64,000 nt of DNA from Tangfeifania diversioriginum (lineage in GTDB: Bacteria; Bacteroidota; Bacteroidia; Bacteroidales; Prolixibacteraceae), in the NCBI GenBank assembly GCA_945873105.1, contig CAMCBW010000003.1:1-64000 (forward strand). The letters are read 5' to 3'. Shown piece after piece: positions 20,257-60,641 of the stretch (position 1 is the first letter of the stretch; each line of letters begins with the position of its first letter). Made by a program: the position numbers and the translations under genes. The notes beneath the pieces were generated by a model. It was not told the origin of the DNA and made no database searches. It saw only the letters and a list, made by a program, of their open reading frames with translations.

Positions 20257-21099
20257 ATGGAGAATAAATACAAAGGGATTGGGGAGCTTTTAATGACATC
20301 CCGTGGAATAGATATTTCGGGATTTGATTCTTCTTTTGTGGAAAAATCCATTGGAAGAAGGCGCTCTGTCTGCAATGATCTCACGAATGCCGAATACCTT
20401 GAGTTTCTAAAGGCAAACGACCTTGAAGCAGATCTGCTGATCGATTCACTGCATGTCTCCTATACGGAATTTTTCCGCAACCCATTGACCTTTTCCTGCC
20501 TCGAGCAGGTGGTATTGCCACTGCTGCTGGCTGCCAAGGTCAAGCGGAAGGAGAAGAGCATCCGTATCTGGTCTGCTGCCTGTGCATCAGGGCCTGAACC
20601 CTACAGTCTTGCCATGCTGATCGACGAATTGAATTGCAATCATCCGGGCAAAATCAACTTTCAGATTTTTGCTACTGACAACAATCTGCCTGAATTGTCC
20701 AAGGCTGAAATGGGGATTTATCCCCCCAATTCCATGACGAAGGTGACAGTGAAAAGAGCCCAGAGCTACTTTTCCATGGATGGCGAGCAATACGCAATCT
20801 CCCCGCACCTGAAGGGTATGGTGGATTTTTCCTACTTCGACCTGCTGTCAGACAGCAGGTCATGCCCTGAGCCAAGCATCTACGGCAATTTTGACCTGGT
20901 TATGTGCAGCAATCTGCTTTTTTATTACCAACCAGAACTACGCCTTAAAATCCTCAAAAAAGTGGAAGCGACCATGACACCCGGTGCCTTCCTGGTAACA
21001 GGGGAGACAGAGCGGGATTTCCTGCTGAAAAACGGCTACCAGGAGGTCATTGAATACTCAGCCATCTTTAGAAAAAGGTACCAAGTACAAAAGCCATAA
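20257..21099 (+). CDS. cheR: CheR-type protein-glutamate methyltransferase
   Basis: 280 residues. An N-terminal CheR helical domain (about 1-75) precedes a SAM-binding methyltransferase fold: SYTEFFRNPLTF, then IRIWSAACASGPEPYSLAM (SAM motif I) and FDLVMCSNLLFYY. CheR methylates glutamates of chemoreceptors using S-adenosylmethionine. No methyl-accepting protein or CheB is present here; the gene lies 11 bp upstream of a hybrid kinase with a chemoreceptor-like 4-helix sensor, so it may modify that sensor. In Bacteroidota, CheR is often seen beside hybrid kinases. Confidence 0.85.
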   Translation: MENKYKGIGELLMTSRGIDISGFDSSFVEKSIGRRRSVCNDLTNAEYLEFLKANDLEADLLIDSLHVSYTEFFRNPLTFSCLEQVVLPLLLAAKVKRKEKSIRIWSAACASGPEPYSLAMLIDELNCNHPGKINFQIFATDNNLPELSKAEMGIYPPNSMTKVTVKRAQSYFSMDGEQYAISPHLKGMVDFSYFDLLSDSRSCPEPSIYGNFDLVMCSNLLFYYQPELRLKILKKVEATMTPGAFLVTGETERDFLLKNGYQEVIEYSAIFRKRYQVQKP

Positions 21100-21110
21100 A
21101 CAGATTTTCT

Positions 21111-24100
21111 ATGCAACAGTTTACTGACCTGAAAATAGGAACACAATTAAGAATCGGATTCGGAATAATTCTGGCACTAATCATGATGCTGGGTGCCATC
21201 TCTTGGCATCAATCCAACAGAATTGCTGCACAAACCTCTTACTTATACAGCCACCCATTGCAGGTTAGGCGGGCGCTTAGTGACTTAAAGTCCAATCTCC
21301 TCCAGATGCGCTGGGAGCTATTGAGTTTGCAGCTCAACAAGGATGAAAAACTGAGACAAAGTTCCCTTCAAAAGATGGATCTCTGCCAATTAAATGCCGA
21401 AAAAAGCCTGGATACCATCTCCATATCCTATCTCGGACCTAAATCGGATGTGGTTGATGCACGCAAAGCATTCCATTCATGGGTATCCACCGTGAAAGAA
21501 TACAGTACACTTGTAATCGTCAATAAGAGTGGCACCGAACTTACACACTTTGACCAGGTGGCAGATATGAACAAAAAAATTGACCTGGTATTGACATCCA
21601 TTGAGACGATCAGCGCGTTTGCTTACATGAAGGGTAATTCGTTCTACGCTGCCAGTGTGCAGATGAAAAAATCGCTGGATCTTCAGCTCTTGTTTACTGT
21701 GATTGTAATTTTTTCATTTTCATTTCTGATCATTTACATCCTGCTGCGAAATACCCAACAACCTGTGAGTGAACTAATCAGAGCCACCAGGTTGTTTGGA
21801 AAGGGCAAGATGGAAACGCGCAGCAATTATGTTTCGCACAACGAATTCGGGATCTTGTCAGACTCGTTCAACAAACTCGCAGAAACGCTTGAACAGGAGT
21901 TCTATTTCAGGGATCATGTCGCAAATATCAACGCCTTCATGCTCAAGGGGCTTGAATCGAGCAGCTCTATTCGCCAGGTGCTGGAACCGTTGATGAAGCA
22001 GACCAACACCCAGGTTGGAGCAGTCTACCTGCTCAACGATCTTAAAACAAAATTTGAACTTGCCGAATCGATAGGCCTGACCGCTTCGGCCAAAAAATCA
22101 TTTTCAGCCAACAGTTTTGAAGGTGAAATGGGCATTGCCTTGTCCAGCAAGAAAATAGAACACATTACCAAAATTCCTGCAGAAACAGATTTATACCTGG
22201 CAACCGTCAACGGGAAAATCAGACCCAAAGAGATCATTACCATTCCGTTGCTGGAGAAAAAAGAGGTGGTGGCTATTATCTCACTCTCCAGTCTTCAGGG
22301 CCATGGCGAGGTTGCGGTAAGGTTGGTCAGGGAGATTCAAAGCGCACTGACCAACTGGATCAGTGTGATCATTGCCAGCAGGAGAATCCAAAAAATGGGT
22401 GAGAACCTGGTACAACAAAACACTGAACTGGAAGCACAGAAGCATGAACTGCAAGCCCAAAAGCATGAGTTGGAGGTCCAGTCGAATGAATTGCTTGAAC
22501 AGAATGCAGAACTGGAAATGCAGAAAAAGCAGTTGAACGAAAGCAACCAACTGAAAACCAACTTCCTTTCCAATATGAGTCATGAGTTGCGTACACCGCT
22601 CAATTCGGTCATAGCCCTCAGTGGGGTATTGAACCGAAGGCTGGCATCCAAAATTGCAGAAGAGGAGTACAGTTACCTGAGCATCATTGAACGCAACGGA
22701 AAACAGCTTTTATCCCTGATCAACGACATCCTGGATCTTTCCAGAATCGAGGCAGGGTTCGAAGAGGTGCACCTCAACAAATTCAACATCAATTCCCTCT
22801 TAAGTGAGGTGGTAGATTTAATTGGTCAGCAGGCCATTGAGAAAAACATTGACCTCACCTTCGAGGTAAATGAAGAGATGCCCCCCCTCCAAAGCGATTA
22901 TGAAAAATGCCGCCACATCTTGCAGAACATTGTTGCCAACGCCATTAAGTTCACCGACCAGGGTGAAGTAAGCATCAAAGCGAGCGCGGATGATCATTCG
23001 GTGTATGTGGAGATCAAAGATACCGGGATTGGGATTGACCAGGAGTTTCTCCAGCAGATCTTTGAGGAGTTCAGACAGGCCGACAACAGCAATTCCAGAA
23101 AATATGGAGGAACCGGTCTGGGATTGTCAATCGCCAAAAAATATGCCCGCTTGTTGGGCGGCGACATTACGGTAGAGAGCTGGAAAGGGAAAGGATCCCT
23201 GTTTACGCTTGTTTTACCCATTACCCCTCCTGCTATTCCAGGTGATCATTTTGTTCAGGAGTTGTTTCCACTTCCCCATTTGAAAACGGCTGCGCCAATG
23301 GCCAGTGAAAACCAGATACAGGGAAAAAACATTTTGCTGGTGGAAGACTCGGAAGCGGTGATCATACAGATGAAGGAGATGCTCACTGCCGAGGGATACC
23401 ACATTTCGGTGGCGCACAATGGCACTGAAGCGTTGGAGAGGACTGCAGAAAGTATCCCGGATGCCATGATCCTGGATCTGATGATGCCCGGGATAGATGG
23501 GTTTGAAGTTTTGAGAAGAGTTCGGGAAAGGGAGGAGACTGCTCAATTACCCATCATCATCCTTACCGCCAAATATGTAACACGGGAAGAACTTGCCTTT
23601 CTCAAGCACAACCACGTACAGCAGCTCATCCAAAAGGGTGAGGTGAATAAAAGGCAACTCCTGGACATTGTATCAACTATGATTTTCGGAAAGGAGGCAG
23701 ACACAAAACCGGTGCCGGAGATGAAACAGATCTCTCCCAGGGAGGGCACACCTCTGATTTTAGTGGTAGAAGACAATCCTGATAATATGATGACCATCAA
23801 GGCATTGCTGGAAGGTTATGGCCAGGTGCTCGAGGCTACAGACGGACTCAACGGTATCGAAATGGCAATGGTGCACCAACCCAACCTTATCCTCATGGAC
23901 ATTGCCCTACCGGGAATGAACGGTATCGAGACCATGCAGGAGATTCGAAAATCAGAATTATTGAAGAATACTCCGGTGGTGGCGGTATCTGCCAGCGCAA
24001 TGAAAGGCGACCGTGAACATTTTCTGGCTTGCGGGTTCAACGAATACATATCCAAACCCATTGACCATTTGACACTTGACCATACCCTAACCAAAACCTT

Positions 24101-24128
24101 TGGTCTTAAACGCATTCACCATGATTAA
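21111..24128 (+). CDS. Hybrid histidine kinase (4HB-HAMP-GAF-HK-REC-REC)
   Basis: 1005 residues. Two membrane segments (about 13-32 and 192-213) flank a periplasmic four-helix-bundle-type domain. A HAMP domain (about 215-265), a GAF domain (about 280-415), and a long QKHELEAQ-type coiled coil (about 425-485) follow. The kinase core has His491 in MSHELRTP, an N-box VANAIKF and GTGLGLS. Two receiver domains end the protein, with Asp789 (LDLMMP) and Asp930 (LMDIALP). It is cotranscribed with cheR upstream (11-bp gap) and overlaps the next kinase gene by 8 bp. The stimulus is unknown. Confidence 0.9.
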   Translation: MQQFTDLKIGTQLRIGFGIILALIMMLGAISWHQSNRIAAQTSYLYSHPLQVRRALSDLKSNLLQMRWELLSLQLNKDEKLRQSSLQKMDLCQLNAEKSLDTISISYLGPKSDVVDARKAFHSWVSTVKEYSTLVIVNKSGTELTHFDQVADMNKKIDLVLTSIETISAFAYMKGNSFYAASVQMKKSLDLQLLFTVIVIFSFSFLIIYILLRNTQQPVSELIRATRLFGKGKMETRSNYVSHNEFGILSDSFNKLAETLEQEFYFRDHVANINAFMLKGLESSSSIRQVLEPLMKQTNTQVGAVYLLNDLKTKFELAESIGLTASAKKSFSANSFEGEMGIALSSKKIEHITKIPAETDLYLATVNGKIRPKEIITIPLLEKKEVVAIISLSSLQGHGEVAVRLVREIQSALTNWISVIIASRRIQKMGENLVQQNTELEAQKHELQAQKHELEVQSNELLEQNAELEMQKKQLNESNQLKTNFLSNMSHELRTPLNSVIALSGVLNRRLASKIAEEEYSYLSIIERNGKQLLSLINDILDLSRIEAGFEEVHLNKFNINSLLSEVVDLIGQQAIEKNIDLTFEVNEEMPPLQSDYEKCRHILQNIVANAIKFTDQGEVSIKASADDHSVYVEIKDTGIGIDQEFLQQIFEEFRQADNSNSRKYGGTGLGLSIAKKYARLLGGDITVESWKGKGSLFTLVLPITPPAIPGDHFVQELFPLPHLKTAAPMASENQIQGKNILLVEDSEAVIIQMKEMLTAEGYHISVAHNGTEALERTAESIPDAMILDLMMPGIDGFEVLRRVREREETAQLPIIILTAKYVTREELAFLKHNHVQQLIQKGEVNKRQLLDIVSTMIFGKEADTKPVPEMKQISPREGTPLILVVEDNPDNMMTIKALLEGYGQVLEATDGLNGIEMAMVHQPNLILMDIALPGMNGIETMQEIRKSELLKNTPVVAVSASAMKGDREHFLACGFNEYISKPIDHLTLDHTLTKTFGLKRIHHD

Positions 24129-27100
24129 AATTCTTGCGATAGATGATATCAACGACAACCTCGTCAGCCTGAAAGCCATCCTGACCGATCTTTTCCCGGA
24201 TGTTGCCGTTTTAACCGCACAGTCTGGTCAGAAAGGCTACGAACTGGCTGTTGCAGAAAACCCTGACGTAATCCTGCTCGACATTGTGATGCCCGGATTG
24301 GATGGCTTTGACGTTTGCCGCCAGCTTAAAAAAAATGAACTGGTATGGGATATCCCCGTCGTTTTTCTGACCGCATTGAAGGGTGACCAGGAGAGCCGCA
24401 TCAAAGCATTGGAGGCCGGGGCAGAGGGATTCCTGGCCAAACCCATCGACGAAACTGAATTGACTGCCCAGATTAGGGCCATGGTGAAAATAAAGCAGGC
24501 CAAAGAGCATCAGCAGGATGAAAAAATTACGCTCCAAAGAATGGTGGAAGAGCGGACAGCAGCCCTTGAAAATGAACTGAACGAAAGGAAACGGGCGGAA
24601 AAATTGCTGCATGAAAGTGAATATTTCTTCAAAGAGACCCAGGAAGCGGCATTCATTGGCTCCTACAAGTTTGACATCGTAAAAGATCATTGGACTACTT
24701 CCGAAATTTTGAATCAGATTTTTGGCATCGACAACAGCTACCCCAGGGCGTTCAAGGATTGGCAAGAATTGATCCATCCTGACGACCGGGAGATGATGTC
24801 CGGTTATTTCATGGACGAGGTATTTGCCCAACTGAAACCATTTAACAAAGAGTATCGCATCGTCCGCCGTTCTGACCAGGAAACCAGGTGGGTACTGGGG
24901 CTCGGACGACTCCATACAGACGAGGAGGGAAACATCATCTCCATGATGGGAACCATTCAGGACATTACTGAAATAGTCCTCGCTAAAAATGCCATCTTAC
25001 TCAATGAACAGAAATACAGAAGGCTCTTTGAATCCAATTCAGACAGCATCGCAATTTTCCTCCTCAACGAAGCGGACTCCACTGTGAGGTTTGTGGATTG
25101 CAATGAAAACAATGTGCGGTTGCTGGGATACAGCAAGGAGGAGCTTTTTCACCAAGATCCTTTGGAGATTGAATTGGCAATTACCCCCGAAAAGATTGAC
25201 TGGCGGAAAAATGAACTCCTAAAGAACGGCACTGCAGTATTTGAGACAAAACTGAGGCACAAAACCGGAACTGTCATTGATGTTGAGATCAAGGCGGTAT
25301 TGATCAATTACAACGATCAGCCTGCCATCATGAACATTACCAGTGATATTACCAAGCGAAAACACCAGGAAGAGTCCCTGAAGCAATCGAATGAATTGAA
25401 CCGTTCGTTGATACAAACCATTCCATTCGGGATAAACATCGTGGATGAAACGGGGAATATCCTCTTCATGAATGACAACCTGAAAAAATTTGCATCCAAA
25501 AGAGTGACCGTCCAGAAATGTTGGGAATTCTACCGGGACGACAAAACACAATGCGCAGCGTGTCCATTGGCCAAGGGAATCACCATTGGTAAAACGGATT
25601 TGTATGAGTCTTCCGGTGTATTGGGCGGGAAGACCTTCCAGATCAGTCATACCGGCATGATTTTTCAGGGCAAGAAGGCCATACTCGAAGTTTTTCAGGA
25701 CATCACAGAAAAAATGGAGACTGATAAAAAAGTAAAATTACTAGCCCATTCCCTGGAAAGCATCAATGAATGTGTCTCTGTGACAGACAATGAGGACACC
25801 ATTATCTATGTGAACCAATCCTTTTTAAATACCTATGGTTACAGCTATGATGAATTGATTGGCCAGCACACCAATATTTTGAGAGCACCCGACAACACCC
25901 AGCCGCATGCAAGGGATATTCTCCCACTCACGAAAGAGGGGGGTTGGAAAGGTGAGATCATCAACCGGAAAAAAGATGGGACACTCTTCCCCATCTCCCT
26001 TTCAACTTCTGTCATCAAGGATGACACGGATCATCCAGTGGCCCTGATCGGAGTAGCCACCGACATTACCGAAACGAGGAGATCCAGAAACGAACTGATC
26101 GCAGCCAGGGACCGGGCAGAGGAGAACAACCGGCTTAAAACAGCCTTTCTCAACAACATGAGCCACGAGATTCGTACGCCCATGAACCACATTATGGGAT
26201 TTTCCAGTTTGATGTCGGAAGCTGCATGCAGTGAAAAGGATGCATTTGCAGCCATTATTCAGAATAGTTCAAACCAACTGCTATCCCTGATAGAGAATGT
26301 AATATTGCTTTCCAGGCTTCAAAGTGAAAGACCCGTCATCAACAACCAGGTAGTAGGAGCCAAAGAGTTTGTTTCCAATTTGGGTGAAATATTCAGATCT
26401 GATTGCAAGCAGAAGAACCTGGAATTGCAGTTCAGTATTCCGGATCTCTACCAGGATCTGACCATCCAGGCTGATACAGAAAAGCTACGCCTGATCATGG
26501 TGAACCTCCTGTCAAATGCTTTAAAATACACGGATACCGGATCTATCACGATTGGATTCAATGTATTGGAGGCAAAACATGTGGCCGTAGAGACAAGGTA
26601 TGCCTTGTCTCAATTGCATACCACGGAGGCAAAGCATGCCCTGTCTCTGCATGAACCCTACCTGCAATTTTTTGTAAAAGATACCGGTTTTGGCATACAA
26701 GCAACCGAACAAGCCAAAATATTCGATTCATTCTACCGAACCGAAAAGGCGATATCCTTGGCCATTGGCGGAACCGGTCTTGGGTTAAGCATTGTAAAGG
26801 AGCTGGTAAAATCGATCAATGGCACCATCCACCTGGCATCAGAACCAGGCAACGGTTCTACCTTCTATTTTACCATTCCATTGGTTTCAACTGAAAGTAG
26901 CCCGGAATCGGTGAAGTCGCACTTCAATTTTTATCCTAAAATGGAGGATATGGTACTGCTCATCGCGGATGATGAACACATGAATTTCCTCTACCTTGAA
27001 ATATTGCTAAAAAATCTCGTAAAGAAAATTGACCATGCCAGCAACGGCAGGCAAGCATTGGAAATGGTTTCAAAACAACGCTACGATCTGATTTTCATGG

Positions 27101-27330
27101 ATCTAAAAATGCCTGAAGTGAATGGATATGAGGCAACAAAAATGATAAAGCAACAACAACCGGAAGTAACCATCATCGCCCAGACTGCCTACTCCTCCCC
27201 GGAAGACGAAGAGAAAGCCCTCCTGGCCGGATGCGATGACTTTATCTCAAAACCAATAAAAAAGTCACTACTCCTGGAAAAATTGCAAAAATTCAGTTCA
27301 TGGGAAAAGGGCATAAATTACATAGACTAA
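24121..27330 (+). CDS. Hybrid histidine kinase (REC-PASx4-HK-REC)
   Basis: 1069 residues from the ATG at 24121, which overlaps the upstream stop (ATGATTAA). Soluble. An N-terminal receiver (Asp54 in LLDIVMP) and a short coiled coil precede four PAS-like domains (about 155-285, 290-415, 425-530, 535-655). The kinase core follows with His682 (MSHEIRTP), then the ATPase domain and a C-terminal receiver (Asp994 in FMDLKMP). Odd: the ATPase domain carries an insertion of about 25 residues (VETRYALSQ... EAKHALSLHE), encoded by GTAGAGAC-type palindromes, just before FFVKDTGFG. The third PAS has a Cys-rich segment (DKTQCAACPLAKG). Confidence 0.9.
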   Translation: MIKILAIDDINDNLVSLKAILTDLFPDVAVLTAQSGQKGYELAVAENPDVILLDIVMPGLDGFDVCRQLKKNELVWDIPVVFLTALKGDQESRIKALEAGAEGFLAKPIDETELTAQIRAMVKIKQAKEHQQDEKITLQRMVEERTAALENELNERKRAEKLLHESEYFFKETQEAAFIGSYKFDIVKDHWTTSEILNQIFGIDNSYPRAFKDWQELIHPDDREMMSGYFMDEVFAQLKPFNKEYRIVRRSDQETRWVLGLGRLHTDEEGNIISMMGTIQDITEIVLAKNAILLNEQKYRRLFESNSDSIAIFLLNEADSTVRFVDCNENNVRLLGYSKEELFHQDPLEIELAITPEKIDWRKNELLKNGTAVFETKLRHKTGTVIDVEIKAVLINYNDQPAIMNITSDITKRKHQEESLKQSNELNRSLIQTIPFGINIVDETGNILFMNDNLKKFASKRVTVQKCWEFYRDDKTQCAACPLAKGITIGKTDLYESSGVLGGKTFQISHTGMIFQGKKAILEVFQDITEKMETDKKVKLLAHSLESINECVSVTDNEDTIIYVNQSFLNTYGYSYDELIGQHTNILRAPDNTQPHARDILPLTKEGGWKGEIINRKKDGTLFPISLSTSVIKDDTDHPVALIGVATDITETRRSRNELIAARDRAEENNRLKTAFLNNMSHEIRTPMNHIMGFSSLMSEAACSEKDAFAAIIQNSSNQLLSLIENVILLSRLQSERPVINNQVVGAKEFVSNLGEIFRSDCKQKNLELQFSIPDLYQDLTIQADTEKLRLIMVNLLSNALKYTDTGSITIGFNVLEAKHVAVETRYALSQLHTTEAKHALSLHEPYLQFFVKDTGFGIQATEQAKIFDSFYRTEKAISLAIGGTGLGLSIVKELVKSINGTIHLASEPGNGSTFYFTIPLVSTESSPESVKSHFNFYPKMEDMVLLIADDEHMNFLYLEILLKNLVKKIDHASNGRQALEMVSKQRYDLIFMDLKMPEVNGYEATKMIKQQQPEVTIIAQTAYSSPEDEEKALLAGCDDFISKPIKKSLLLEKLQKFSSWEKGINYID
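26587..26647. repeat. Two palindromic repeats inside a kinase gene
   Basis: 26587-26611 is GTAGAGACAAGG-TATG-CCTTGTCTC: 9-bp arms (GAGACAAGG/CCTTGTCTC) around TATG. 26626-26647 is a degenerate second copy (GAGGCAAAGCATGCCCTGTCTC). Both lie in frame in the ATP-binding domain. The first encodes VETRYALS, nearly the same peptide as the copy at 28000-28027. Confidence 0.8.
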
Positions 27331-27349
27331 AAGCACTACTCCGCAAACA

Positions 27350-29314
27350 TTAAAAATACTTCCCTACCAAGGAGAGCAAATCATTTTTCTGAATGGGTTT
27401 GGAAATCCAATCGTTGCATCCTGCTTCCAGCGATCGCTCCTTATCCCCTACCAGACCAAAGGCTGTTTGGGCTACAATGACCACCTGCTTGTTAAAATTC
27501 CTGATCATTCTGGCAGTCTCGATCCCATTCATTCCGGGCATACGAATATCCATCAGGACCAGGTCAATCTCAGGATGGTTGTGCATGATCTCCAATGCAT
27601 CCAATCCTGACTGAGCCAAATAAGTTCTTTCACTCATTTTTTCCACGTAGGCAATGATCAGCTTACTGGAAATCTCGTCGTCTTCAACAACCAGGATATG
27701 AAGTTTCCTCTGCCTTTTATCCTCCTCTGTAGGAGCAATTTCAAGCTGATTAAAAGCCATTACTTCTGGTTCCATTTTGTATGGAAGGGTAAAATAGAAG
27801 GTAGATCCTTCCCCTGGTGTGCTCTTGACCCAAATTTTGCCTTGCAACATCTGAACATAGGCGCGGGCAATGGTCAATCCCAATCCACTGCCCTGCCGGG
27901 CCTGTACATCTGCAATATCTGCCTGCACAAATCGCTCAAATATGGCCTCCTGTCTTTCTAATGGTATCCCGATACCGGTGTCCTTCACATAAAATTGCAG
28001 TAGAGACGAGGCATGCCTTGTCTCTACAACATCGTACCCAAACTCAATGGAACCGTGGTCAGTATATTTTATGGCATTTTTAACAAGGTTGGTAAGAATG
28101 GAATAGAGTTTCTCCGGATCTGTCAAAACAATGGCACTGCTGGCAGGAAGTGGAGTCTGGCAGGAGATCTCAATTTTCCTTTGCTGCGCTTCCGGCTTCA
28201 TCAGATTACAAATGGATTCAATCTGTTCGTTGATATTTGTCTCTTTGAGACTGACCTCCATCAGGCCGGATTCAATCTTCGAAATGTCCATTATTTCATT
28301 GATGATGTTGAGCATTCGGACACCACTTTTCTGAATAATCCCAATGTATTTCGACCGGTCTTCCCCATCAAGCCCTGGCTCACTCAGCAAGGAGGAGAAG
28401 CCAAGTATTCCGTTCATCGGGGTACGAATTTCGTGGCTCATGTTGGCCAGAAATGCTGATTTCAGCCGGTCACTCTCTTCTGCCCTCTCTTTCGCGGCAA
28501 TGAGATCAATGGTCAGCTTCCTTTGCTCTGTGATATCCTGATTGATCACCTGAAAATGACGCTTTCCATCCCATAGCACCTCATTCCTTAGAATCTTCAC
28601 ATAACTGATCGACTTGTCTTTTCTGACAATGCCCAGTTCATATTCCAAAATATCCTTTCCGTTTTTTCTAAGCTCCATTCGTTCAAGATGCTGCAAATAA
28701 CTCTCCGGTAAATAATGCTCTTTGGCAGGCGTATGAATGTACTCCTCCAGGCTGCTAAAATCGAATATCTTCAGAAAGGCTTTGTTCGCATAAATGGTTT
28801 CCCCCTCCATGTTGACGATCCGAATTCCCAGCGGAGACTCAGAAATTGATTGTCTGAAATTTTCTTCTGATTGAAGCAGTGCCTTTTCAGCTGCTGCCCT
28901 TGCCCGATGGGTCTGCGCTTCCCGGTAGGCTCTTTTCAGGGCCGGGATCAAGCGCTCCATCTTATTTTTGAGCACGTAGTCCGTAGCGCCATTTAACAAG
29001 GAGTCGATGGCGACATCTTCGCCCATGGTTCCACTCAGGAAAACAAAAGGAGTGGATGGGAAATGGTCCCTGGCAAACGCAAGGGCTTCAGACCCGCTGT
29101 AATCCGGCAGGTGATAGTCAGAAAGTATTAAATCAAAATTTCCGTTTTTGAGTTTGAATTGAAACTCCTCTTCGCCATCAGTCTGGTGGTAATCAACCAG
29201 AAAGTGGTCGCGGTCAAACAGGGACTTCACCAATTGTGAATCAAATTGGTTGTCCTCCAGGTGAAGAATTTTGATTGGACCACTCATTTCCAAGTTCAGC
29301 GCTGCATCTTTCAT
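27350..29314 (-). CDS. Hybrid histidine kinase (REC-PAS-HK-REC)
   Basis: 654 residues; soluble. N-terminal receiver (IKILHLEDN; LILSDYHLP), a PAS domain (about 150-275), a kinase core with MSHEIRTPMNG, N-box LVKNAIKYTD, DTGIGI and GSGLGLT, and a C-terminal receiver (LMDIRMP). The start overlaps the stop of the single-domain regulator upstream (ATGA), so the two are translationally coupled in an operon headed by the copper ATPase-kinase fusion. A VETRHASSLL insertion before the FYVKDTG motif comes from a 28-bp palindrome. The gene runs convergent with the REC-PASx4 kinase, 19 bp apart. Confidence 0.9.
   Translation of the reverse strand: MKDAALNLEMSGPIKILHLEDNQFDSQLVKSLFDRDHFLVDYHQTDGEEEFQFKLKNGNFDLILSDYHLPDYSGSEALAFARDHFPSTPFVFLSGTMGEDVAIDSLLNGATDYVLKNKMERLIPALKRAYREAQTHRARAAAEKALLQSEENFRQSISESPLGIRIVNMEGETIYANKAFLKIFDFSSLEEYIHTPAKEHYLPESYLQHLERMELRKNGKDILEYELGIVRKDKSISYVKILRNEVLWDGKRHFQVINQDITEQRKLTIDLIAAKERAEESDRLKSAFLANMSHEIRTPMNGILGFSSLLSEPGLDGEDRSKYIGIIQKSGVRMLNIINEIMDISKIESGLMEVSLKETNINEQIESICNLMKPEAQQRKIEISCQTPLPASSAIVLTDPEKLYSILTNLVKNAIKYTDHGSIEFGYDVVETRHASSLLQFYVKDTGIGIPLERQEAIFERFVQADIADVQARQGSGLGLTIARAYVQMLQGKIWVKSTPGEGSTFYFTLPYKMEPEVMAFNQLEIAPTEEDKRQRKLHILVVEDDEISSKLIIAYVEKMSERTYLAQSGLDALEIMHNHPEIDLVLMDIRMPGMNGIETARMIRNFNKQVVIVAQTAFGLVGDKERSLEAGCNDWISKPIQKNDLLSLVGKYF
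28000..28027. repeat. 28-bp palindromic repeat inside a kinase gene
   Basis: GTAGAGACGAGG-CATG at 28000-28015 continues to a right arm ending GTCTCTAC; the arms are perfect reverse complements except for one position. It is in frame in the ATPase domain of the - strand kinase and encodes VETRHASSL. Confidence 0.85.
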
Positions 29315-29751
29315 AAAACTGGCAACTCATTGATAATTACCCAATATTTACCCAAATCCTTGACAACCTGCATAAAGGAGCTCATGTTGACTGGTTTGAC
29401 CACGAAGGAGTTCGCCCCGTTGTCGTAGCAAGCCTGAAGATCACGGGAGTCACGAGAGGAGGTAAGCATAATGACCGGAATTTGATTGAATTCAGGATCC
29501 TGACGGATAATTTTCAAAACTTCAATCCCGTCCATCATGGGCATCTTAATGTCGAGCAGTACGAAAATTGGTTTACCTCCTTTGTACCCGGAAAATTTCC
29601 CTCGGTTGTAAAGAAAATCAATCGCCTCTTCCCCATCTTCAGCCACGATTATTTCATTGCCGAAATTGGCATCTTTCAAGGCCGCCTTGATCAAAGTAAC
29701 ATCGTTTGCACTGTCATCCACCAGCAGAATATCCTTAACGATTGTCCTCAT
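29311..29751 (-). CDS. Single-domain response regulator (Rcp1-like)
   Basis: 146 residues, a receiver domain only. ILLVDDSANDV supplies the acidic pocket, the phospho-acceptor Asp is in VLLDIKMPMMDG, Thr/Ser in MLTSSRD and Lys in VVKPVN. The EDGEEAIDFLYNRGKFSG segment is typical of Rcp1-like regulators that pair with phytochrome-type kinases lacking their own receiver. The upstream fusion protein ends in just such a kinase ([13 protein letters not shown]) without a receiver, so this is its likely phosphorylation target. It overlaps the downstream hybrid kinase gene. It lies 88 bp after the fusion gene. Confidence 0.9.
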   Translation of the reverse strand: MRTIVKDILLVDDSANDVTLIKAALKDANFGNEIIVAEDGEEAIDFLYNRGKFSGYKGGKPIFVLLDIKMPMMDGIEVLKIIRQDPEFNQIPVIMLTSSRDSRDLQACYDNGANSFVVKPVNMSSFMQVVKDLGKYWVIINELPVL

Positions 29752-29839: not shown

Positions 29840-32800
29840 TTAATTCGGTAGCGTGAAATAAAACCTGGCACCTTTGTCAACCTCCCCTTCGGCCCAGCAT
29901 CTGCCGCCGTGCCTGGTTACAATTCGCTTGATATTTGCAAGCCCGATCCCGACTCCCTCGAAATCCCGCGACTTGTGCAGACGCTGAAAAACCCCGAACA
30001 GTTTGTCGGCATATTTCATGTGAAAACCGGAGCCGTTGTCCTGAATGTAGAAAACCGTCTCATCACCTTCAAGGTAACTTCCAATCTTTACAATCGCCTT
30101 CTCACGCTTACCGGTATACTTAATGGCATTGGAGAGCAGATTGACCCAAACCTGGCCAATGAGCTGATGGTCGCCATAGGTAGCTGGCAAAGGATCAATT
30201 ACTATCTCAATTTCCCGCTCTTTCATCTCCTTAGCAAAGAGTTTTAACCCCTGCTCTATGACCAGGGAGGTATCAAACAGACTCTTGTGCAGTTCGGCCC
30301 GGTTCAGTCTGGAAAAGGAGAGCAGTGCATCTATCAATTCTCCCATTTCGATGGCAGAGTTGGTGACAGTTTTGAGATAGTCAAGCTCCTCCTCTGTTAA
30401 ATGCGAGGATCCAGTTTCTAGAAAGAGGTTTATAAATCCGGTAATGTGGCGCAATGGAGCCCGTAAATCGTGGGATACGGAATAGGAAAATGCCTCCAGC
30501 TCCTTGTTGGCCAGCTCCAGTTGCTTTGTACGCTCGACTACACGCTGCTCCAGTGTTTCATTGAGTTTTTGAATCTCGTTTTCTGCCTTCTTACGATCGG
30601 TAATGTCCAAAGCAAATGCCGCAATGTGTTCTTCCGGACCGGGTATCATCCGATCTGCCAGCAATACAGAAACCCTTGACCCATCCTTGAGTTGATACTC
30701 TTTTTCGTAGGGTGTGCAGATTCCCATTTCACGCATCTCCCGGATTGCCTTGTCATCGGCAGGAAGCCATTCCTGGGGGGTAATCGACAACCAGTCGACA
30801 TTCCCCTCCTCGAATTCCTTTCGGGTAAAACCGACCAAATTCAGGTAATAATCATTGGCGTCAATTATTTTGCCATCGGTAGTTGCCAAAACGACCCCTA
30901 TGAGGTTCGAATCGATGAAACTCCTCAAACGGTTGTTGGTCTGAAGCAGTTTTTCTTCCGCTTGCTTCCGTTCAGTGATGTCGAAACAATAACCTATATA
31001 TCCTACAAATTCATTGTTGCTTGTAAAATTTGGGGTCCCAAAGTCACTAATCCAACGATAATTCCCACTTGCATGGTACATGCGATACTCCATCTCAAAT
31101 TTTTCCCGCTGATCAAATGCGCGATCAAAAGTATCCAGGCAACGATTCAAATCATCCGGATGCACTCCTTCAGTCCAACCTTTTCCAAGTTCCTGTTCAA
31201 GGGTTCGCCCGGTAAATTTCAACCAGGGTTCATTGAAAAATGTACAGTTCTTTTCCACATCGGAGGTCCAGATCAATGCTATTCCGGAATTGGCCAGGTT
31301 CCGGTATTGTACCTCGCTTTCCTTCAGTTGAATCTGTACAAGCATTTGCTCCGTAATGTCCTGGATGGAGGTGATGAAGTATTGCGGATTTCCTTTAGTA
31401 TCCCTCTGCAGCACGGTACTTAGATCGACCCAAACAATGTGTCCATTCTTGTGGATGTAGCGTTTCTCAAAACGCGCGCTGTTTCTTTCGCCGGAAAAAA
31501 TTGAATCCAGATGGTCCTGGTTCAACTTTACGTCATCGGGATGAGTGATGCTGGGCCATTTTTGGTTGGCCAATTCTGATTCAGAATAACCAAGTATCTC
31601 CCGAAACCGTCTGTTGGTTCGCAAAGTACCATCTACGGCTGTTATCGATTTACCTACTGTGGAATACTCAAATATATTTCTGAAGTACTCTTCACTTAGT
31701 CGCATGGACTCTTCCGCCTTTTGGCGGTCCCTGATCTCTTCCTGCAATGCGTTGTTGACTATTGAAAGCTCCTCTGTCCTTTCCCTGACCCGTTGCTCCA
31801 CCGCTTCATAGGCCCTATTCAACTCTTTTTGGGTATAGACCAGCTTGTCCCGCTCCCTTTGAAGTTCATCGTTGACCATTTTAAGCTGTTTGGCACTTGG
31901 AATGGCAAGAATTTTAGGCAGGTAAGGCCAAACTACCACCGCAGTGGCCAGCGAGATGATGGCACAAATGGAATCTGCAGTTGCCTGCCACCAGTCCACC
32001 TCCCACCACAAACCAATTACATGCATGACATGGGTTGTACCACAGGCAAGGATGAAAAGTCCAAACAGGAAGATGATCCAGGTGAATGGCATATCCTTCC
32101 GTTTCCGGACAAAAACCACGAGGAAGAATGGAATAGAGGCATAGGAAATGGCAATGATGGCATTGGAAAGAGCCATCACCATCATTAAAAGCGGTGTCAT
32201 ATTGCCTGGAATGGTACCCTTGATCTCCATACTCTCACCCGGCATGAATACCATTGGTCCTATGATCAGCACCGCAAGGGCGATGGCCGGTGCTACGATG
32301 CGCGGCACCAACTCCAACGTCTGCCGCAAAACGCTCTTTGCGGGAGCAAAAGTCTCCACCTTGTAAGCGCGAAGCCTGAGGCTATTGGTTACTACAAAGA
32401 GGGAACTGAAAGCCATTGCGCCGGCCGCAAACATTGGACTGAGCAGCCCATAGGCAGCGATTGGGATCAATGCCACATTGTAAAACAGCGCCCAAATCAG
32501 GTTCTGGATAATGGTTTTTGAAGTGCCCCTGGACAGAGAAATAGCCTTGCCAATCCCGGCCAGGTCTCCACTGATCAGGGTAATGCCGGCTGCTGCCATG
32601 GCAATATCCGTGCCGGTTCCGATGGCTATCCCCACATCGGCCTGGGCCAGTGCTGGAGCATCGTTGATGCCATCCCCCACCATGGCCACCATCGGATGGG
32701 CGAAATTCCCCATAGATTTGCTCTCTTGCAGTTCCTTGATAACCTCCGCCTTTTTCCCGGGGAGGATTTCTGCATAGAACCTTGTAATCCCTACCTGTTT

Positions 32801-34801
32801 GGCAATGGCTGCAGCAGCCTGCTGGTTGTCACCGGTAATCATCACCAGTTCCAGTCCAAGCTTCCGGAGATCGCCAATGGCCTCCACTGCTCCTTGTTTC
32901 AGGGTATCAGCGACGGCAATCATCCCGGCAATTTCACCCGGAAGTTCTGAATCTGCCGCCTTCACAGCGACCAGCATCACGGTTTTACCCTCCGACTGCA
33001 GCCTGACCACCGCTGGATCCAGCTCCGAGGTGTCGATACCCTCTTTTTGCATCATCCGCAAATTGCCCATGGATACGAGCTGCGCTCCTACCCTTGCACG
33101 GATGCCAAAACCACCAAATGCCCTGAATTGCGTCGGTTCTGTAAGCAGCATGCCTTTTGATTTCGCATAGTTGACAATGGCCTTACCCAAAGGATGTTCT
33201 GAGCCCAGTTCTGCGCTGGCCGCCAAATGAAGCAGTTGATCGGCCTCATACAGACCCGAAGGCAAGAGTTCTGTTATTTGTGGTTCTCCGCGTGTAATGG
33301 TTCCTGTCTTATCCAGGACAATGACGTTCAGTTTCCCGGCTCGCTCCAGCATCTCGCTGTTTTTGAAGAGTATCCCATTCTCTGCCCCCTTTGAGGTACC
33401 CACCATGACTGCTGTCGGGGTAGCCAGTCCAATGGCACAGGGACAGGCAATCACCAGTACCGCCACGGCATTCATCATGGCGATGGTCCAATCTGCCTCT
33501 GCAACATATATCCACCCAAGAAAAGTAAACAGGGCAATGGCTACGATGATGGGAACAAAATATTTGCCAATTTCATCGGTCAACTTCTGGATGGGTGCCT
33601 TGCTGCCTTGCGCTTGCTGCACCATCTTGACAATCTGCGCCAAAGTACTGTTCTTCCCCACCCTGGTAGCCTCGTACCGGATCATCCCCTCCCTGTTGAT
33701 CGTCGCACCGATAATTTCATCACCCGGTCCTTTGCTGACCGGGATAAACTCTCCGGTAATCATGGACTCTTCGAAGGCCGACCTTCCCTCGCTGATGATA
33801 CCATCTACAGGAACTTTCTCCCCCGGACGAACCACGATGGTATCTCCAACCTCAACCTCATCGATATTGACCGCTGTTTCAACGCCGAACTTTACCACTG
33901 TAGCAGTTTTGGCCCGCAATCCCATCAGCGCTTTCAACGCTTCGGAGGTTTTTCCCTTTGCTTTGGATTCGAGGTATTTTCCGAGCCTGATCAAGGTAAT
34001 GATGGCGGCACCCGTTTCAAAATAGACATTGGGACTATCGATCCAACCGATGGTGACCAGCAAGCTGGAAAAATAGGCCGCCGAGGCACCCATCATAATC
34101 AGGACATCCATGTTGGCACTCCCAAAACGAAGGCTCTTGTAGGCTCCCACATAAAAATGCCAGCCTACCACAAACTGAACGACCGTAGCAGCAAATAGCA
34201 TGGCAAAATTGTCGTATTGGAAACCAACAATCTTAAAATCACGCGCCATGCTGTAAAATACCAACGGAACCGTAAAGAGGAGTCCTACGACCAGCAATTT
34301 CTTTTGTTTGGAAAGTTCGGAAGCCCGGACTTTTGCCTCTACATCCTCCATCTCCTCCATCTCCCCGGCCTGAACAATGTTGAATCCTGCTTTCCGGATG
34401 ATGGAGACCAGTTCTGCAATGGAGGTCATGCCTGGTACAAACTCCATTCTGGCATGCTCTGTGCCGTACGCCACCTCCCCGGCGATGACCCCATTTTGTC
34501 TTAGCAGTAATTTTTCCAGCGTCAAGGCATCTGTAGCATCCTGCATCCCTGTGATTGCAAACTCAACCTTACCAATGGCAACATCGTAACCAAGTTGCCT
34601 GACTACAGCAATCACCCCGGCGTCATTCAGCAGGGTTGAATCAAAGGAGATATTCAGTTTTTCGGCGGCAAAGTCAACGGCAACAGACTCAATGCCATTG
34701 ATCTTTCGCACATTGGACTCGATGGACAATGCACAATTGCTGCACGACATTCCTGTTATAGGCATGATGGAAGTTTTGATACGAGTCATATGTCCAGACA
34801 T
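29840..34801 (-). CDS. Cu(I) P-type ATPase fused to ETR1-like copper/ethylene-sensor domain, PAS domains and histidine kinase
   Basis: 1653 residues in one unbroken frame. An HMA domain with GMSCSNC (Cys20, Cys23) and a second HMA-like domain without CxxC (about 80-140) precede a full P1B-1 ATPase: TGE 349-351, CPC 453-455, DKTGT 497-501, HP 536-537, GDGINDAP 709-716, Tyr774/Asn775 and Met796/Ser800 copper-site residues. After an extra helix (834-853) comes a three-helix domain (about 868-965) that aligns with the ethylene-binding domain of ETR1: [19 protein letters not shown], and CGTTH, with Cys920 and His924 equal to copper ligands Cys65 and His69. Asp25 of ETR1 is Asn880 here. A coiled coil, three PAS domains (about 1035-1150, 1165-1275, 1290-1400), HisKA (His1444) and an ATPase domain follow. 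Family functions: Cu export or loading, and copper-dependent sensing. The joint role is inferred. Confidence 0.93.
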
Positions 34802-35854: not shown

Positions 35855-37117
35855 ATGAAAACTAAAGACGCAATCAAGAAAATAAACTTCTACCCGGAGA
35901 AAAGAGGTGACAATATCGACAATGTTCCTGTCATTCTCAGTGTTGCATATTCTGGTAAAAGAATGTTCTATTATACTGGCAAAAGGTGCAATATCTCACA
36001 ATGGAATTATGATGACAATAAACTAAAGCGAAACAACATTGCACCAAATGGTCAGACATCCACATCCTTTAATTCTGATCTCACTGAAATTGAAGATGCC
36101 TTAGATGCATTATTTAACGAATATGTAATTACAAAAACAATTCCCGCTACAAACAAGCTTCGAGAAGATCTGAAAACTAAGTTGGGCAAAAAAACAACAA
36201 TCCGAGAAAGTGATCACCAGGAACCTAGATTTTTTGATTGGTTTGATAAGTATATAAAAGACGCTGACCTAAGTGCCGGAAGGAAAAAGCATCTTAACAC
36301 TACTTTAAACAAGGTACGCGGATATGATCCAAATACAACATTTGAAATATTGGATACTCAATACCTGACCGACTTTCGAAATCACCTGCTTGTCAAATGT
36401 AATTTAAGCAAGAACACAGTAATATCCGAGCTCAGGAGATTAAGAGCGTTTTACAGCTATGCTCAAAAAAATAAATGGACCAATCAACGGCCCTTTGAAG
36501 GCTTCCAAATCGGGGCAGAATCATTCGGGGATCCAGTATTCATTACCTTAGAGGAAAGAGATTTATTGTACAATGCTATCATAGAGAATGATACACTAAG
36601 ACGAGTAAGGGATATCTTTGTATTTCAATGTTTCATCGGCTGTCGTGTAGGAGACCTGGTAAAACTGAAGAAATCGAACATTATAGATGGCTGTATTCAA
36701 TACATTGCTGGAAAAACAAAAGATGAAAAGCCAAGGGTGGCTCGTATACCTTTGACAGAAAAAGCCTTGACCATTCTTTCACGATATGACCTTCCCAATG
36801 GCGATCTCCTACCCTACTATTCCGATCAGAAATACAACAAATACATTAAAGACATATTCAAGCTCAATGACATTAAAATAACCAGGATGGTAACTATTGC
36901 TGATCCAAAGACGCGCAAAAGCATTCAGAAGTCAATTGCAGACCTGGCAAGCTCTCACATGGCAAGACGCGTTTTCGTAAGCAGTTTGTACAAGAAAGGC
37001 GTTAAAAACGAAATCATCGCAAGCATGAGCGGACATTCTGAAAATTCACGAGCGTTCGGGCGATACCATGGAATTGACCAAGAGGATCAGACAAAAGCCA
37101 TTAAATTGATTGAATAA
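35855..37117 (+). CDS. Tyrosine recombinase / phage-type integrase
   Basis: 420 residues. An N-terminal Arm/SAM-like region of the Bacteroidota transposon-integrase type (about 1-110) and a core-binding domain (about 125-225) precede the catalytic domain. Catalytic residues visible: Arg in GCRVGDLVKLKKSN, Lys in AGKTKDEKPR, HxxR in SSHMARRVFVSS, His in MSGHSENSRAF and the nucleophile Tyr in GRYHGI. It catalyses site-specific integration or excision. It is AT-rich compared with the genes to its left. A perfect hairpin lies just before the ATG, and a tRNA-3'-end-like sequence follows 12 bp after the stop, as expected for an integrase next to its attachment site. Confidence 0.9.
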   Translation: MKTKDAIKKINFYPEKRGDNIDNVPVILSVAYSGKRMFYYTGKRCNISQWNYDDNKLKRNNIAPNGQTSTSFNSDLTEIEDALDALFNEYVITKTIPATNKLREDLKTKLGKKTTIRESDHQEPRFFDWFDKYIKDADLSAGRKKHLNTTLNKVRGYDPNTTFEILDTQYLTDFRNHLLVKCNLSKNTVISELRRLRAFYSYAQKNKWTNQRPFEGFQIGAESFGDPVFITLEERDLLYNAIIENDTLRRVRDIFVFQCFIGCRVGDLVKLKKSNIIDGCIQYIAGKTKDEKPRVARIPLTEKALTILSRYDLPNGDLLPYYSDQKYNKYIKDIFKLNDIKITRMVTIADPKTRKSIQKSIADLASSHMARRVFVSSLYKKGVKNEIIASMSGHSENSRAFGRYHGIDQEDQTKAIKLIE

Positions 37118-57503: not shown

Positions 57504-60500
57504 TCATAGATTAATCTTTAAGCTTTTAATATTCTTTTGATTTTTTATCCAAACCCAGGTTGCTGGTTTGTTTTTGTAGCTGCCTGAAACGGTTGCTTCT
57601 GCTGAATAACCCTGTTTTTTGAATTTTTCTATGACAAGTGTACCTTCTTCAGAACTTTCGAAAGGACCAAATCTTACTGAGAGATCTGGAATCTGTATAC
57701 TGCTATTCAGGATAAAGCTTTCCCCCTTATTATATTCATAGTCAACTTTAGCCTTTACCAGATTATTCCCCTCCTTGATAAGAACTGCATGATTGATCAC
57801 TGAAATACCTTCCATGGGGTCAGGGATTCGGGGCAATATTTTTATGAACGCATTGTTGGTATCATCTACACCGGCACAAGCTTCAATTGCATGCATTACC
57901 GGACCCTGATTTGCGCCGTTGGAAAGGTCATTGATCCGGTGCCAGCTTCCGTCTGGCAAAATGTTAGTTCCCTCGGGAATAATCCACATCCATTTTCTCC
58001 AGTCATTTCCCCTTACAGAATCCACATAATTCATGTTTTTGTCGTAAGAATATTTCGCTGCATTCACCAATAAAGTGCCAGCATCATCCATTTCGTCGAG
58101 TAAAAGAGCAGCATGTGTCAGCCAGCCATGTCCGTAACCCATTGCCAGTACAGGCTGATATTTGTATGGCATCTTCATGTGTTCATGGTATGTATTCCTG
58201 GTGATTGTAAGCATTTCCTGATTCCATTTTTGCGGGTCAAGGCCTTCCTTATATAGGGAAAAAAAAGTTTGAACAAGTCTGTCCTGAAAGGTTGTTAATA
58301 TGGAATAAGGAGAAATTTTCCATGTCAATTCATTAAAATCTCCGCAGATTAACTGTCTCAACATTGCCTTCTTAATCTTTTCAGCATAAAAATTCCACTT
58401 ATCCTCCATTTGACTATTCCCCACTGAATTTGCCATTTCTGCTGCACAATGAAGGGCTGTCATACAGGCAAAATTAGGATAGGGCTCATACATATTGCAG
58501 TTGGCATAGTTCTCTTTGATTTTTGCATAGTCGGTTTCATTCCGCATATTTTCCGGAACCAGACAATAATTTTTTCTTATGCCGCCCCATCCGGTAAATT
58601 CACCCTCCGAATAAACAAGATCCCTGCCTGTATAATCCATTAGCCAGCAAATAAACTCTGTAGCATCTATTGTACTCTCCCAGCGACTTTTATTAAAGAT
58701 GTTTTCACGCTTTCTCAATAACCAGTCATTAGCAGAACCTCCCTGGAGTCTCCATGCAACCCATCGCCCGATGATTGTTGAAGCATGCCCGTCCATTTCC
58801 TCATCTCCATCAATTTCGTTTATCTGCCTACTTCCCCCCTTGTACGATCCATTATTCAATTCCATTGCCCAATGTGGAGGAGCACCTTTTGGATAACGGC
58901 TGATATCCAGATTATCATTTGGCGGACCTTTTTCCGGATCTCTGTTGCTCCTGAAGTAGTAAAGGAAATAATCGCAAAAATCGACAAAAGAACTCTCTCT
59001 CTGAGGAATATTTATATGACGCAAAGCCAGGGTCACATAATGATCGCTGGTTCGGGAGTATGCTGCCGGGTAAATGCCCTGTACATTCCAGGTACCTATA
59101 CCTCTGTATCCACCATACCATGGACAATCATCACCGGTCTCTCTGAAATATCCGGTTGCGGCATCAAATTTGTCATGTATCTGAACAAGGTTAGCTGCCC
59201 ATAAATTGCTCAACCAGTTTGCTTCTTTACTACCTAAAAACCGGATGGTTGTAGCATCCAGTCCGGAAGGGATAGTTAATATTTCAGGATTTTCCGGAAG
59301 ATCTGAATGTTTGGTATACAATACATCAGCAAGTATTTTGACATTCATGTTTATACCTTGAGGTTTATTAATATCATAGCTGACTGAGAAATCCTCGGGG
59401 TCAATCCTTACCATCCCAAACGAATGCATTCCCTTCTGAGCTTTACCTGTTAATGATATGGCCGACAAAAGCGGAGCGCCCCTGGTATTGATATCATCCT
59501 CGACTATGATATTTTTAATTTTTTCGCTCCGTGGTTTAACAACCAGGTAAAAATGTTTATAATCTGAGGCAAAAGACGAATTATATTGATCTTCATATAC
59601 TAAAAGTGAATTCCTGAGAATCTTCATCAATTCGGGGCGGGAAGCAAAGGGTTCCTGGCAGGGAATGGAAACTGCTTTATCGGCGCCATGTGACCAGTGG
59701 TTTGAAAACCATACAGTTGATCCGACAATTAGCGGAATGGTATCTGAACCACCATTCTCATATTGAATATGAATCAAACCTATCCTGTTTCCGATATAGT
59801 TCTGATCATTTCTCTTTTTGCGTATTTCGGGATGTTCACTCCAGTGAGCAACGCCATTCTCCCATCCATAATTGATCATGCCCAGGAGAAATAATGTTTC
59901 TGCCATTGCATTCACAGAAATTATCTCCCGGTTTGCTTCAATAATTCTTGTTGTTTTATTTCTCAGTACTGGATCAACAGCAAGAAACGGTATGTTTCGA
60001 CAATATACCGGTGAAGCATTTTCATCGATCACGACAGCCTGTACCAGTTCACTTTGTGGATTAGCAGGCAGTTTTTCACTTACCTGCCGGTAATTTCCAA
60101 AGGCAATCCACTCAAGATTATCGCCTTGTAATTGGCAAATTGCAGGAGAAACGATTTCCAGTTGTACTTTTCCCCCGATTAATTCTTTCGTTGACCATCT
60201 TTCTTCAGATAAAAAGGGGTAGTTATTGCTTACCGTTTCCCTGAGCAGATCACTGCCGGGATAGGAGACCAGCCTTATTCTATTATAATCAAGCTTTCCG
60301 AATAAATTTTTCCCCCACTTGCCAGCTATGCTGAAAACCTGGAATTCCTTTTCTATGGTGAATACTTGTGACCTTAGTTTTCCCTGTGAACCACTTTCAT
60401 CCGGGTACCATTGGAGAAGATATTCCGGAGCAATCCCCTGAAGGCTTTTTTCCTGCTTATTGACTAAAACTTTCCATCTCCCTTTTCCCTGTTGTTCCCA

Positions 60501-60614
60501 TTTTGAAATTGTTGAAGGAGTTATTTCACAAGGTACTCCCTGACCATGAAGTTCAGAAAGTAATAAAAACGAAACAATTGAAAATAGAATTAAATAAGCC
60601 CCTTTTTTTTTCAT
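57504..60614 (-). CDS. Large secreted protein, putative glycosidase of unrecognised family
   Basis: 1036 residues from the Met at 60614, which directly precedes the signal peptide (KKKGAYLILFSIVSFLLLSELHGQ). The first 450 residues look beta-rich. The middle and C-terminal part resembles an (alpha/alpha)6 toroid: repeated helical blocks such as MDGHASTIIGRWVAWRLQGG, WESTIDATEFICWLMDYTG, PNFACMTALHCAAEMANSVGN and AMGYGHGWLTHAALLLDEMDDAG. A small beta-domain closes it. Acidic clusters (EIDGDEEMDGH; ETGDDCPWYGG) could be catalytic. I cannot assign a CAZy family. It sits between a sulfatase and a GH27 gene in the same orientation, so a role in the same glycan breakdown is likely. Confidence 0.6.
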   Translation of the reverse strand: MKKKGAYLILFSIVSFLLLSELHGQGVPCEITPSTISKWEQQGKGRWKVLVNKQEKSLQGIAPEYLLQWYPDESGSQGKLRSQVFTIEKEFQVFSIAGKWGKNLFGKLDYNRIRLVSYPGSDLLRETVSNNYPFLSEERWSTKELIGGKVQLEIVSPAICQLQGDNLEWIAFGNYRQVSEKLPANPQSELVQAVVIDENASPVYCRNIPFLAVDPVLRNKTTRIIEANREIISVNAMAETLFLLGMINYGWENGVAHWSEHPEIRKKRNDQNYIGNRIGLIHIQYENGGSDTIPLIVGSTVWFSNHWSHGADKAVSIPCQEPFASRPELMKILRNSLLVYEDQYNSSFASDYKHFYLVVKPRSEKIKNIIVEDDINTRGAPLLSAISLTGKAQKGMHSFGMVRIDPEDFSVSYDINKPQGINMNVKILADVLYTKHSDLPENPEILTIPSGLDATTIRFLGSKEANWLSNLWAANLVQIHDKFDAATGYFRETGDDCPWYGGYRGIGTWNVQGIYPAAYSRTSDHYVTLALRHINIPQRESSFVDFCDYFLYYFRSNRDPEKGPPNDNLDISRYPKGAPPHWAMELNNGSYKGGSRQINEIDGDEEMDGHASTIIGRWVAWRLQGGSANDWLLRKRENIFNKSRWESTIDATEFICWLMDYTGRDLVYSEGEFTGWGGIRKNYCLVPENMRNETDYAKIKENYANCNMYEPYPNFACMTALHCAAEMANSVGNSQMEDKWNFYAEKIKKAMLRQLICGDFNELTWKISPYSILTTFQDRLVQTFFSLYKEGLDPQKWNQEMLTITRNTYHEHMKMPYKYQPVLAMGYGHGWLTHAALLLDEMDDAGTLLVNAAKYSYDKNMNYVDSVRGNDWRKWMWIIPEGTNILPDGSWHRINDLSNGANQGPVMHAIEACAGVDDTNNAFIKILPRIPDPMEGISVINHAVLIKEGNNLVKAKVDYEYNKGESFILNSSIQIPDLSVRFGPFESSEEGTLVIEKFKKQGYSAEATVSGSYKNKPATWVWIKNQKNIKSLKINL

Positions 60615-60641
60615 TGGGAAAAGATTTATTAAATAATTCAT

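Follow-up and report, generated by a model that had tools for sequence, protein, structure and literature searches.

A CopA-type ATPase and an ETR1-type sensor kinase in one polypeptide: a possible Cu(I) exporter that carries its own copper sensor

Why should a copper pump share one polypeptide chain with an ethylene-receptor domain and a histidine kinase, and which of these parts serves the other? The question is raised by a gene of the Bacteroidota member Tangfeifania diversioriginum (assembly GCA_945873105.1), located at positions 29840–34801 on the minus strand of the first 64,000 nucleotides of contig CAMCBW010000003.1; this whole stretch is referred to below as the window. An earlier note, made from the letters of this DNA, had proposed that the chain is either a pump that loads copper into its own sensor or an exporter whose transport state is reported by the fused kinase. 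Our analysis confirmed that the fusion is real, conserved and unusual, and its sequence suggests that it behaves like a copper exporter with an attached metal-site kinase of the ETR1 type. Because two key residues of the sensor are replaced, and a further histidine and a methionine ladder are fixed, weight moves to the second proposal, although an ethylene reading keeps its share. Overall, we see about an even chance that this protein exports Cu(I) and senses it with a kinase built into the same chain.

The 1653-codon frame is open throughout, and the parts that the earlier note had listed (an HMA domain, a full CopA-type ATPase, three PAS domains and a kinase) were all recovered by open reading frame (ORF), Pfam and NCBIfam analyses; the translation contains CGTTH and [18 protein letters not shown]. 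It starts with an HMA copper-binding domain carrying CxxC (PF00403; residues 15–73; 34583–34759, on the minus strand like all parts of the gene), the only HMA that Pfam calls in this protein, followed by a second HMA-like stretch without CxxC, inferred from alignment (residues ~79–145; 34367–34567). The CopA-type ATPase core, defined by TIGR01511 and motifs, spans residues 161–812 (32366–34321) and is followed by an extra transmembrane (TM) helix, TM9 (824–852; 32246–32332), the outer-side Met ladder (853–876; 32174–32245) and an ETR1_N domain (872–967; 31901–32188). A helical linker (968–1035; 31697–31900) leads to three PAS domains (~1036–1412; 30566–31696), seen as three PAS_9 stretches by Pfam and three sensory_box stretches by NCBIfam, and to HisKA (1436–1500) plus HATPase_c (1543–1652; together 29846–30496), the two Pfam domains that make the protein a sensor histidine kinase. 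Residue counts below refer to 32 fusions, the window protein and loci L061–L091; two more fusions, L051 and L052, stand outside them. The CxxC of the HMA domain is present in 28 of the 32, and a contig edge truncates three of the four misses.

Could the junction be an artefact of assembly or gene calling? A step in the guanine plus cytosine (G+C) content near residue 810 of the window protein would fit such an origin, but 33 other records, one of them a 5.26-Mb contig, show the same junction. Moreover, the ATPase part has a higher G+C content than the C-terminal part in 30 of the 31 relatives L061–L091 (in L088, the remaining one, the sequence stops at the sensor), so that the step does not betray a faulty join. 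Misassembly at the ATPase/sensor boundary is thus ruled out, and we assign virtually no probability to an artefact of any kind. The genomes sharing the fusion were collected by a contig scan with alignment of 12 junctions, in which 80 of 121 confirmed relatives were retained. Frame analysis identified 31 of these 80 loci as fusions (L061–L091, all carried by metagenome-assembled genomes; four end at a contig edge), giving, together with the window, L051 and L052, 34 distinct records. In agreement with the earlier note, no described protein with this layout emerged from the literature searched by title or abstract opening, a scope outside which relevant subscription papers lie. Since the fusion is conserved, a functional link between its parts, the 'Rosetta stone' of that note, is likely.

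The pump belongs, judging by its sequence, to the P1B-1 copper ATPases (CopA), and Cu(I) transport is predicted. It scores 568.6 bits against the CopA family profile TIGR01511 (NCBIfam cut-off 397), Pfam places E1-E2_ATPase at residues 295–474 and a HAD hydrolase at 492–722, and the expected motifs are in place: TGE (349–351), CPC (453–455), DKTGT (from 497), GDGxND (from 709), YN (774–775) and MxxSS (796–800). Eight of these residues (C453, P454, D497, Y774, N775, M796, S799 and S800) are invariant across 48 aligned rows. As strict patterns, GDGxNDxP and MxxSS are found in all 32 fusions, CPC and DKTGT in 31 each (the sole miss of both being a contig-edge fragment), TGE in 27 and YN in 26. 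The best PDB match of an AlphaFold2 (AF2) model is 7r0g, a copper-transporting P1B ATPase that we take to be Legionella CopA.

The sensor, by comparison, has been rebuilt. The earlier note had placed it within residues 830–975 and called for a profile search; this search matched PF25487 at 872–967 with 103 bits (E 1.1e-29; cut-off 27), TM9 occupying the part ahead of it. A sequence search with the sensor returned no PDB relative at E up to 1. The profile match upholds the ETR1-like assignment, although not as an ordinary ethylene-binding domain. In ETR1 numbering, the sensor residues of the window protein are N880 (D25), Y887, C920 (C65), H924 (H69), H927 (position 72), D943 (K91) and C946. 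The helix-1 Asp (D25) is Asn and the helix-3 Lys (K91) is Asp in all 32 fusions, which likewise all carry His at position 72 and retain the copper ligands C65 and H69 as well as Y32, I35, P36 and I62; Cys at 946 varies (25 of 32). The same N, H and D appear in the aligned L051 and L052. Ahead of the domain, M853, M868, M873, M874 and M876 are Met in every fusion and M858 in 30 of them.

For comparison, we used 30 standalone ETR1_N sequences, 21 from Bacteroidota and nine from plasmid records (out of 19 matching plasmid records), one of which is ABSP7_p1 of Azospirillum brasilense Sp 7, the plasmid encoding AzoEtr1; four more were added later (n = 34). Partial, broken or below-cut-off sequences (L009, L010–L012, L019–L021 and L026, later also L197 and L198, both below cut-off) were left out. 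Here D25 is Asp in 27/30 and then 30/34, position 91 is Lys or Arg in 28/34 and Asp in 1/30, and His at position 72 occurs once (1/30, likewise 1/34). At the Met ladder columns, Met is present at 853 in 15 of the 30 and at the other five positions in none. An aligned N-terminal extracytoplasmic Cys, a residue that has a role in ETR1, occurs in 27/30 standalones, and no Cys precedes the N880 column in any of the 32 fusions. Fisher tests of these residue differences gave p < 1e-14, which, because the fusions form one clade, describes a difference between clades only. In line with this, a sensor tree of 67 rows, built without the trait columns, separated the 32 fusions and one relative that has lost its kinase from the 34 standalones with support of 99, and no standalone fell within the fused clade, although the tree rests on few columns and several branches are long.

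These replacements touch the residues on which ETR1 function has been reported to depend. The copper of ETR1 sits at Asp25, Cys65 and His69, and copper loading alone rigidifies the receptor, with an effect reaching its C-terminal part (PMC12643061). Mutation of C65 or D25 has been described as abolishing ethylene binding in ETR1, and ethylene binding has been shown for AzoEtr1 (PMC11819568). According to a review, the Asp forms a salt bridge with the Lys, and its replacement by Asn lowers ethylene affinity ~100-fold while leaving the receptor functional (PMC13012798); we therefore rejected D25N as proof against ethylene. The residue counts nonetheless make it less likely that the sensor is an ordinary ethylene receptor. 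On sequence grounds the domain is a member of ETR1_N that differs from the standard ethylene-binding domain, and we do not claim it as an ethylene receptor, since neither D25 nor K91 is kept and ethylene binding would be a prediction from sequence.

The exchange of the two charged residues may have a wider basis. Two standalones carry an acid at position 91, L176 (Ser at 25, Asp at 91) and L196 (Asn and Asp), both without D25, and in two others, L013 and L032, D25 is lost with no acid at 91. No sequence among the 32 fusions and 34 standalones has acids at both positions. This suggests that a carboxylate swap from helix 1 to helix 3 recurred outside the fused clade; the helix-3 acid looks to have arisen in three lineages, with D25 gone each time, two of them being single long-branched rows.

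On which side of the membrane would this site lie? Mean Lys + Arg counts in the 32 fusions alternate along the chain, with 4.6 after TM8, 1.0 in the loop between TM9 and the sensor, 3.9 and 0.2 in the first and second sensor loops, and 3.8 after the sensor. Under the positive-inside rule, this pattern would put the Met ladder and the N-terminus of the sensor outside, on the side where the pump releases copper. The AF2 model, built from the 48-row alignment up to residue 1010 (mean predicted local distance difference test score, pLDDT, 77.6), has helices at 824–852, 870–900, 906–932 and 937–964 and a long one from 970, which accounts for the linker up to 1009. TM9 itself, a low-confidence helix in the model, is further supported by a hydropathy peak at 835–853 ahead of the sensor. 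In the model, N880, H924, H927 and D943 would occupy the outer part of their helices.

Taken together, these features outline how a Cu(I) exporter with its own Cu(I) sensor kinase could operate. The HMA domain would take up copper and the ATPase would move it out; on the outer side, the Met ladder could capture part of the exported copper and lead it into the ETR1-derived three-helix domain, where Cu(I) would be held at C920/H924 with H927, and perhaps D943, as added ligands. Occupancy of this site would then reflect the copper load or the output of the pump, shifting helix 3 and thereby setting the activity of the PAS-kinase part, which would signal to a response regulator encoded next door. 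The stricter version, a primary pump that reports on itself, in which the ion exported by a P-type ATPase is caught by a receptor domain of the same chain and the kinase reads pump output, seems to us somewhat short of an even bet. If it is true, an ethylene-receptor fold has become a sensor of copper flux: its carboxylate has shifted from helix 1 to helix 3, and His and Met ligands have been added.

Eight relatives (L092–L099) bear on the direction of this relationship. All nine ATPase motifs are intact in each of the eight, and sensor-site and kinase patterns are found in none. L092 has a complete sensor domain that has decayed (Y32 to C, P36 to L, H69 to N and H72 to Y). Roughly one helix of the sensor is left in L094 and L096; L093 and L095 resemble broken remnants, and L099 stops after the pump. 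No kinase was found in the 4–10 kb downstream of five of these eight relics (L092, L094, L096, L097 and L098). On the ATPase tree, the relics sit among the fusions, and given its starred branches the relic label must have changed at least three times. The converse, a sensor of this type without the pump, was seen neither among the 80 retained loci (one of the two scan patterns being sensor-specific) nor among the sampled standalones. Because the pump occurs without the sensor and the sensor was not seen without the pump, the sensor seems to serve or report for the pump rather than the reverse. Within these 80 loci and sampled standalones, this asymmetry in sequence is the strongest argument for a reporting role.

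The opposite order, in which the pump feeds Cu(I) to its own ETR1-type domain so that the chain becomes a self-loading receptor for ethylene, CO, acetylene or a comparable small Cu(I) ligand, with the helix-3 Asp replacing the helix-1 Asp and retuning affinity, is a possible but less probable explanation. It draws on the PF25487 match, the six retained sensor residues, the helix-3 carboxylate of L176 and L196, the functionality of D25N ETR1 and the report that ETR1 obtains its copper mainly from RAN1 (PMC6656775), a parallel that the earlier note had rightly drawn. However, besides the loss of sensor and kinase from pumps that persist, the fusions lack the D25–K91 pair, for which a role in linking ligand binding to signalling has been proposed, and the extra His and invariant Met favour copper itself as the ligand. 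Furthermore, the fusion is the only protein over the TIGR01511 cut-off in six of 12 genomes, so the pump probably does more than load a receptor.

Several observations nevertheless count against a copper-reporting exporter. The six sensor residues conserved in all 32 fusions beside the altered pair are ethylene-binding residues of ETR1, and the Met ladder fits self-loading equally well. The Asp at 91 may stand in for the lost carboxylate, and the ~100-fold loss of affinity on replacement of Asp by Asn left ETR1 working. As the fused clade is one lineage, its fixed sensor differences amount to few events. AF2 is weak precisely in TM9 and the Met loop (block means 49–58) and in the sensor (55–71), and the case for a copper sensor is built on sequence and model. 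Among the relics, kinases lie near L093 (two downstream) and L095 (one upstream), which might have broken recently or be misassembled, and only 385 bases are available downstream of L099. The genomic context points the same way: a second CopA-type pump is encoded in the other six of the 12 genomes, recurrent neighbours (families present in at least three of the 32 loci, clustered by BLAST without profiling) are mainly two-component genes, and the only copper-like member seen by eye among them is a three-locus family of HMA-type membrane proteins. The window's own genome contains two additional small frames that match HMA and gave no match for a CsoR-type copper repressor.

A third explanation, in which control of the pump lies with the kinase part or its partner, with PAS and ETR1_N signals adjusting copper export within the chain and the sensor not reading pump output, appears improbable to us. 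PAS sets do vary among members, so that diverse cytoplasmic signals may be read; in ten profiled C-terminal parts, PAS domains range from none (L067, L086 and L089) to about seven (L061). L061 (L061:5729–13084) is a 2452-aa version in which these seven or so domains separate the sensor from the kinase. Yet no feature suggesting phosphorylation of the pump turned up, although no systematic search for one was made, and a response regulator gene often lies downstream. In the window, a single-domain response regulator, the probable partner, follows at 29311–29751 (minus strand; PF00072), overlapping by 4 bases a hybrid histidine kinase gene (27350–29314, minus strand; NCBIfam). A similar small regulator is encoded downstream in 18 of the 27 fusions with enough sequence (>1.1 kb), within 1.3 kb and on the same strand in 14 and further on in four (L062, L068, L083 and L090). 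In another five, the only candidate is a frame that is larger or lies farther away and matches a regulator less well, and four have none, among them L079, which bears its own receiver. The kinase-less L062, L068, L083 and L090 end in PAS, and the next gene has kinase motifs (one motif only in L062), making them apparent natural split versions, again at odds with control of the pump by its own kinase part.

The window's genome has one copy of ETR1_N, and none of 14 control genomes has any. PF25487 exceeded its cut-off in nine of 140 genomes of the family (six fused), six of 393 of the order (five fused) and 21 of 395 of the phylum (three fused); each count includes the window genome, and BLAST of the loci decided which matches were scored as fused. 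A second phylum sample, centred on a Desulfuromonadales carrier, had four of 395 genomes over the cut-off, and by frame length only the centre genome held a fusion. Carriers are mostly Bacteroidota, joined by one unassigned bin and bins assigned to six other phyla (Geobacter, Desulfuromonadales, Deltaproteobacteria, Spirochaetaceae, Clostridiaceae, Omnitrophota, Holophagaceae and Opitutia). In the ten carriers not labelled as Bacteroidota, the fused copy is the sole ETR1_N, and gene and flanks differ in G+C content by no more than 0.05, which makes stray Bacteroidota contigs unlikely, although bin labels can be wrong. None of the 19 matching plasmid records reaches 80% coverage of the junction query. 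A quickly built tree of the ATPase with 84 rows, from which L075 and L084 (contig edge), L100, L115 and L133 were omitted and in which several plain CopA rows are long-branched, divided 46 plain CopA from 30 fusions and eight relics by one branch (Shimodaira–Hasegawa approximate likelihood ratio test, SH-aLRT, 100).

Three other features of the window were recorded. Genes for CheR-like proteins, hybrid kinases and response regulators are densely packed on one side of the fusion gene (20257–29751), and on the other a tyrosine recombinase (XerC/XerD-like; 35855–37117, plus strand) lies in a low-G+C stretch ~1 kb upstream. Further away, a 1045-aa frame (57504–60641, minus strand) has no Pfam match at 1e-5.

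Two routes by which copper may reach ETR1-type receptors have been contrasted, delivery by a membrane-bound protein and release into the lumen of the endoplasmic reticulum (PMC12586476). Because pump and receptor domain form one chain here, transfer in cis becomes directly testable, and the family offers a natural experiment on the roles of D25 and K91. Should the ligand be copper, the fold of ETR1 would represent a broader copper-sensing module, of which ethylene sensing is one use. Prokaryotic ETR homologs have been reported to possess varied output domains, and the word 'ATPase' is absent from the main text of that account (PMC7700396).

Compared with Arabidopsis ETR1, Synechocystis Slr1212 and Azospirillum AzoEtr1, the fusion shares the three-helix PF25487 domain, C65 and H69, and the succession of cytoplasmic sensor domains and kinase, with a regulator gene downstream as described for AzoEtr1 (PMC11819568). 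It differs from these receptors in D25 to N, K91 to D, the His at 72 and a pump in cis, and in that a Met loop replaces the Cys-containing N-terminus. With CopA and other P1B-1 Cu(I) ATPases (7r0g, ATP7B and plant RAN1), it has in common the fold, the catalytic and metal-path motifs and the N-terminal HMA domain, to which it adds a ninth, C-terminal TM helix, the Met ladder, the ETR1_N domain and the kinase. Transporter–kinase fusions such as CbrA, in which a secondary transporter is joined to a histidine kinase, resemble it in combining a membrane transporter with such a kinase, whereas the present fusion combines a primary, ATP-driven metal pump with a separate metal-site sensor.

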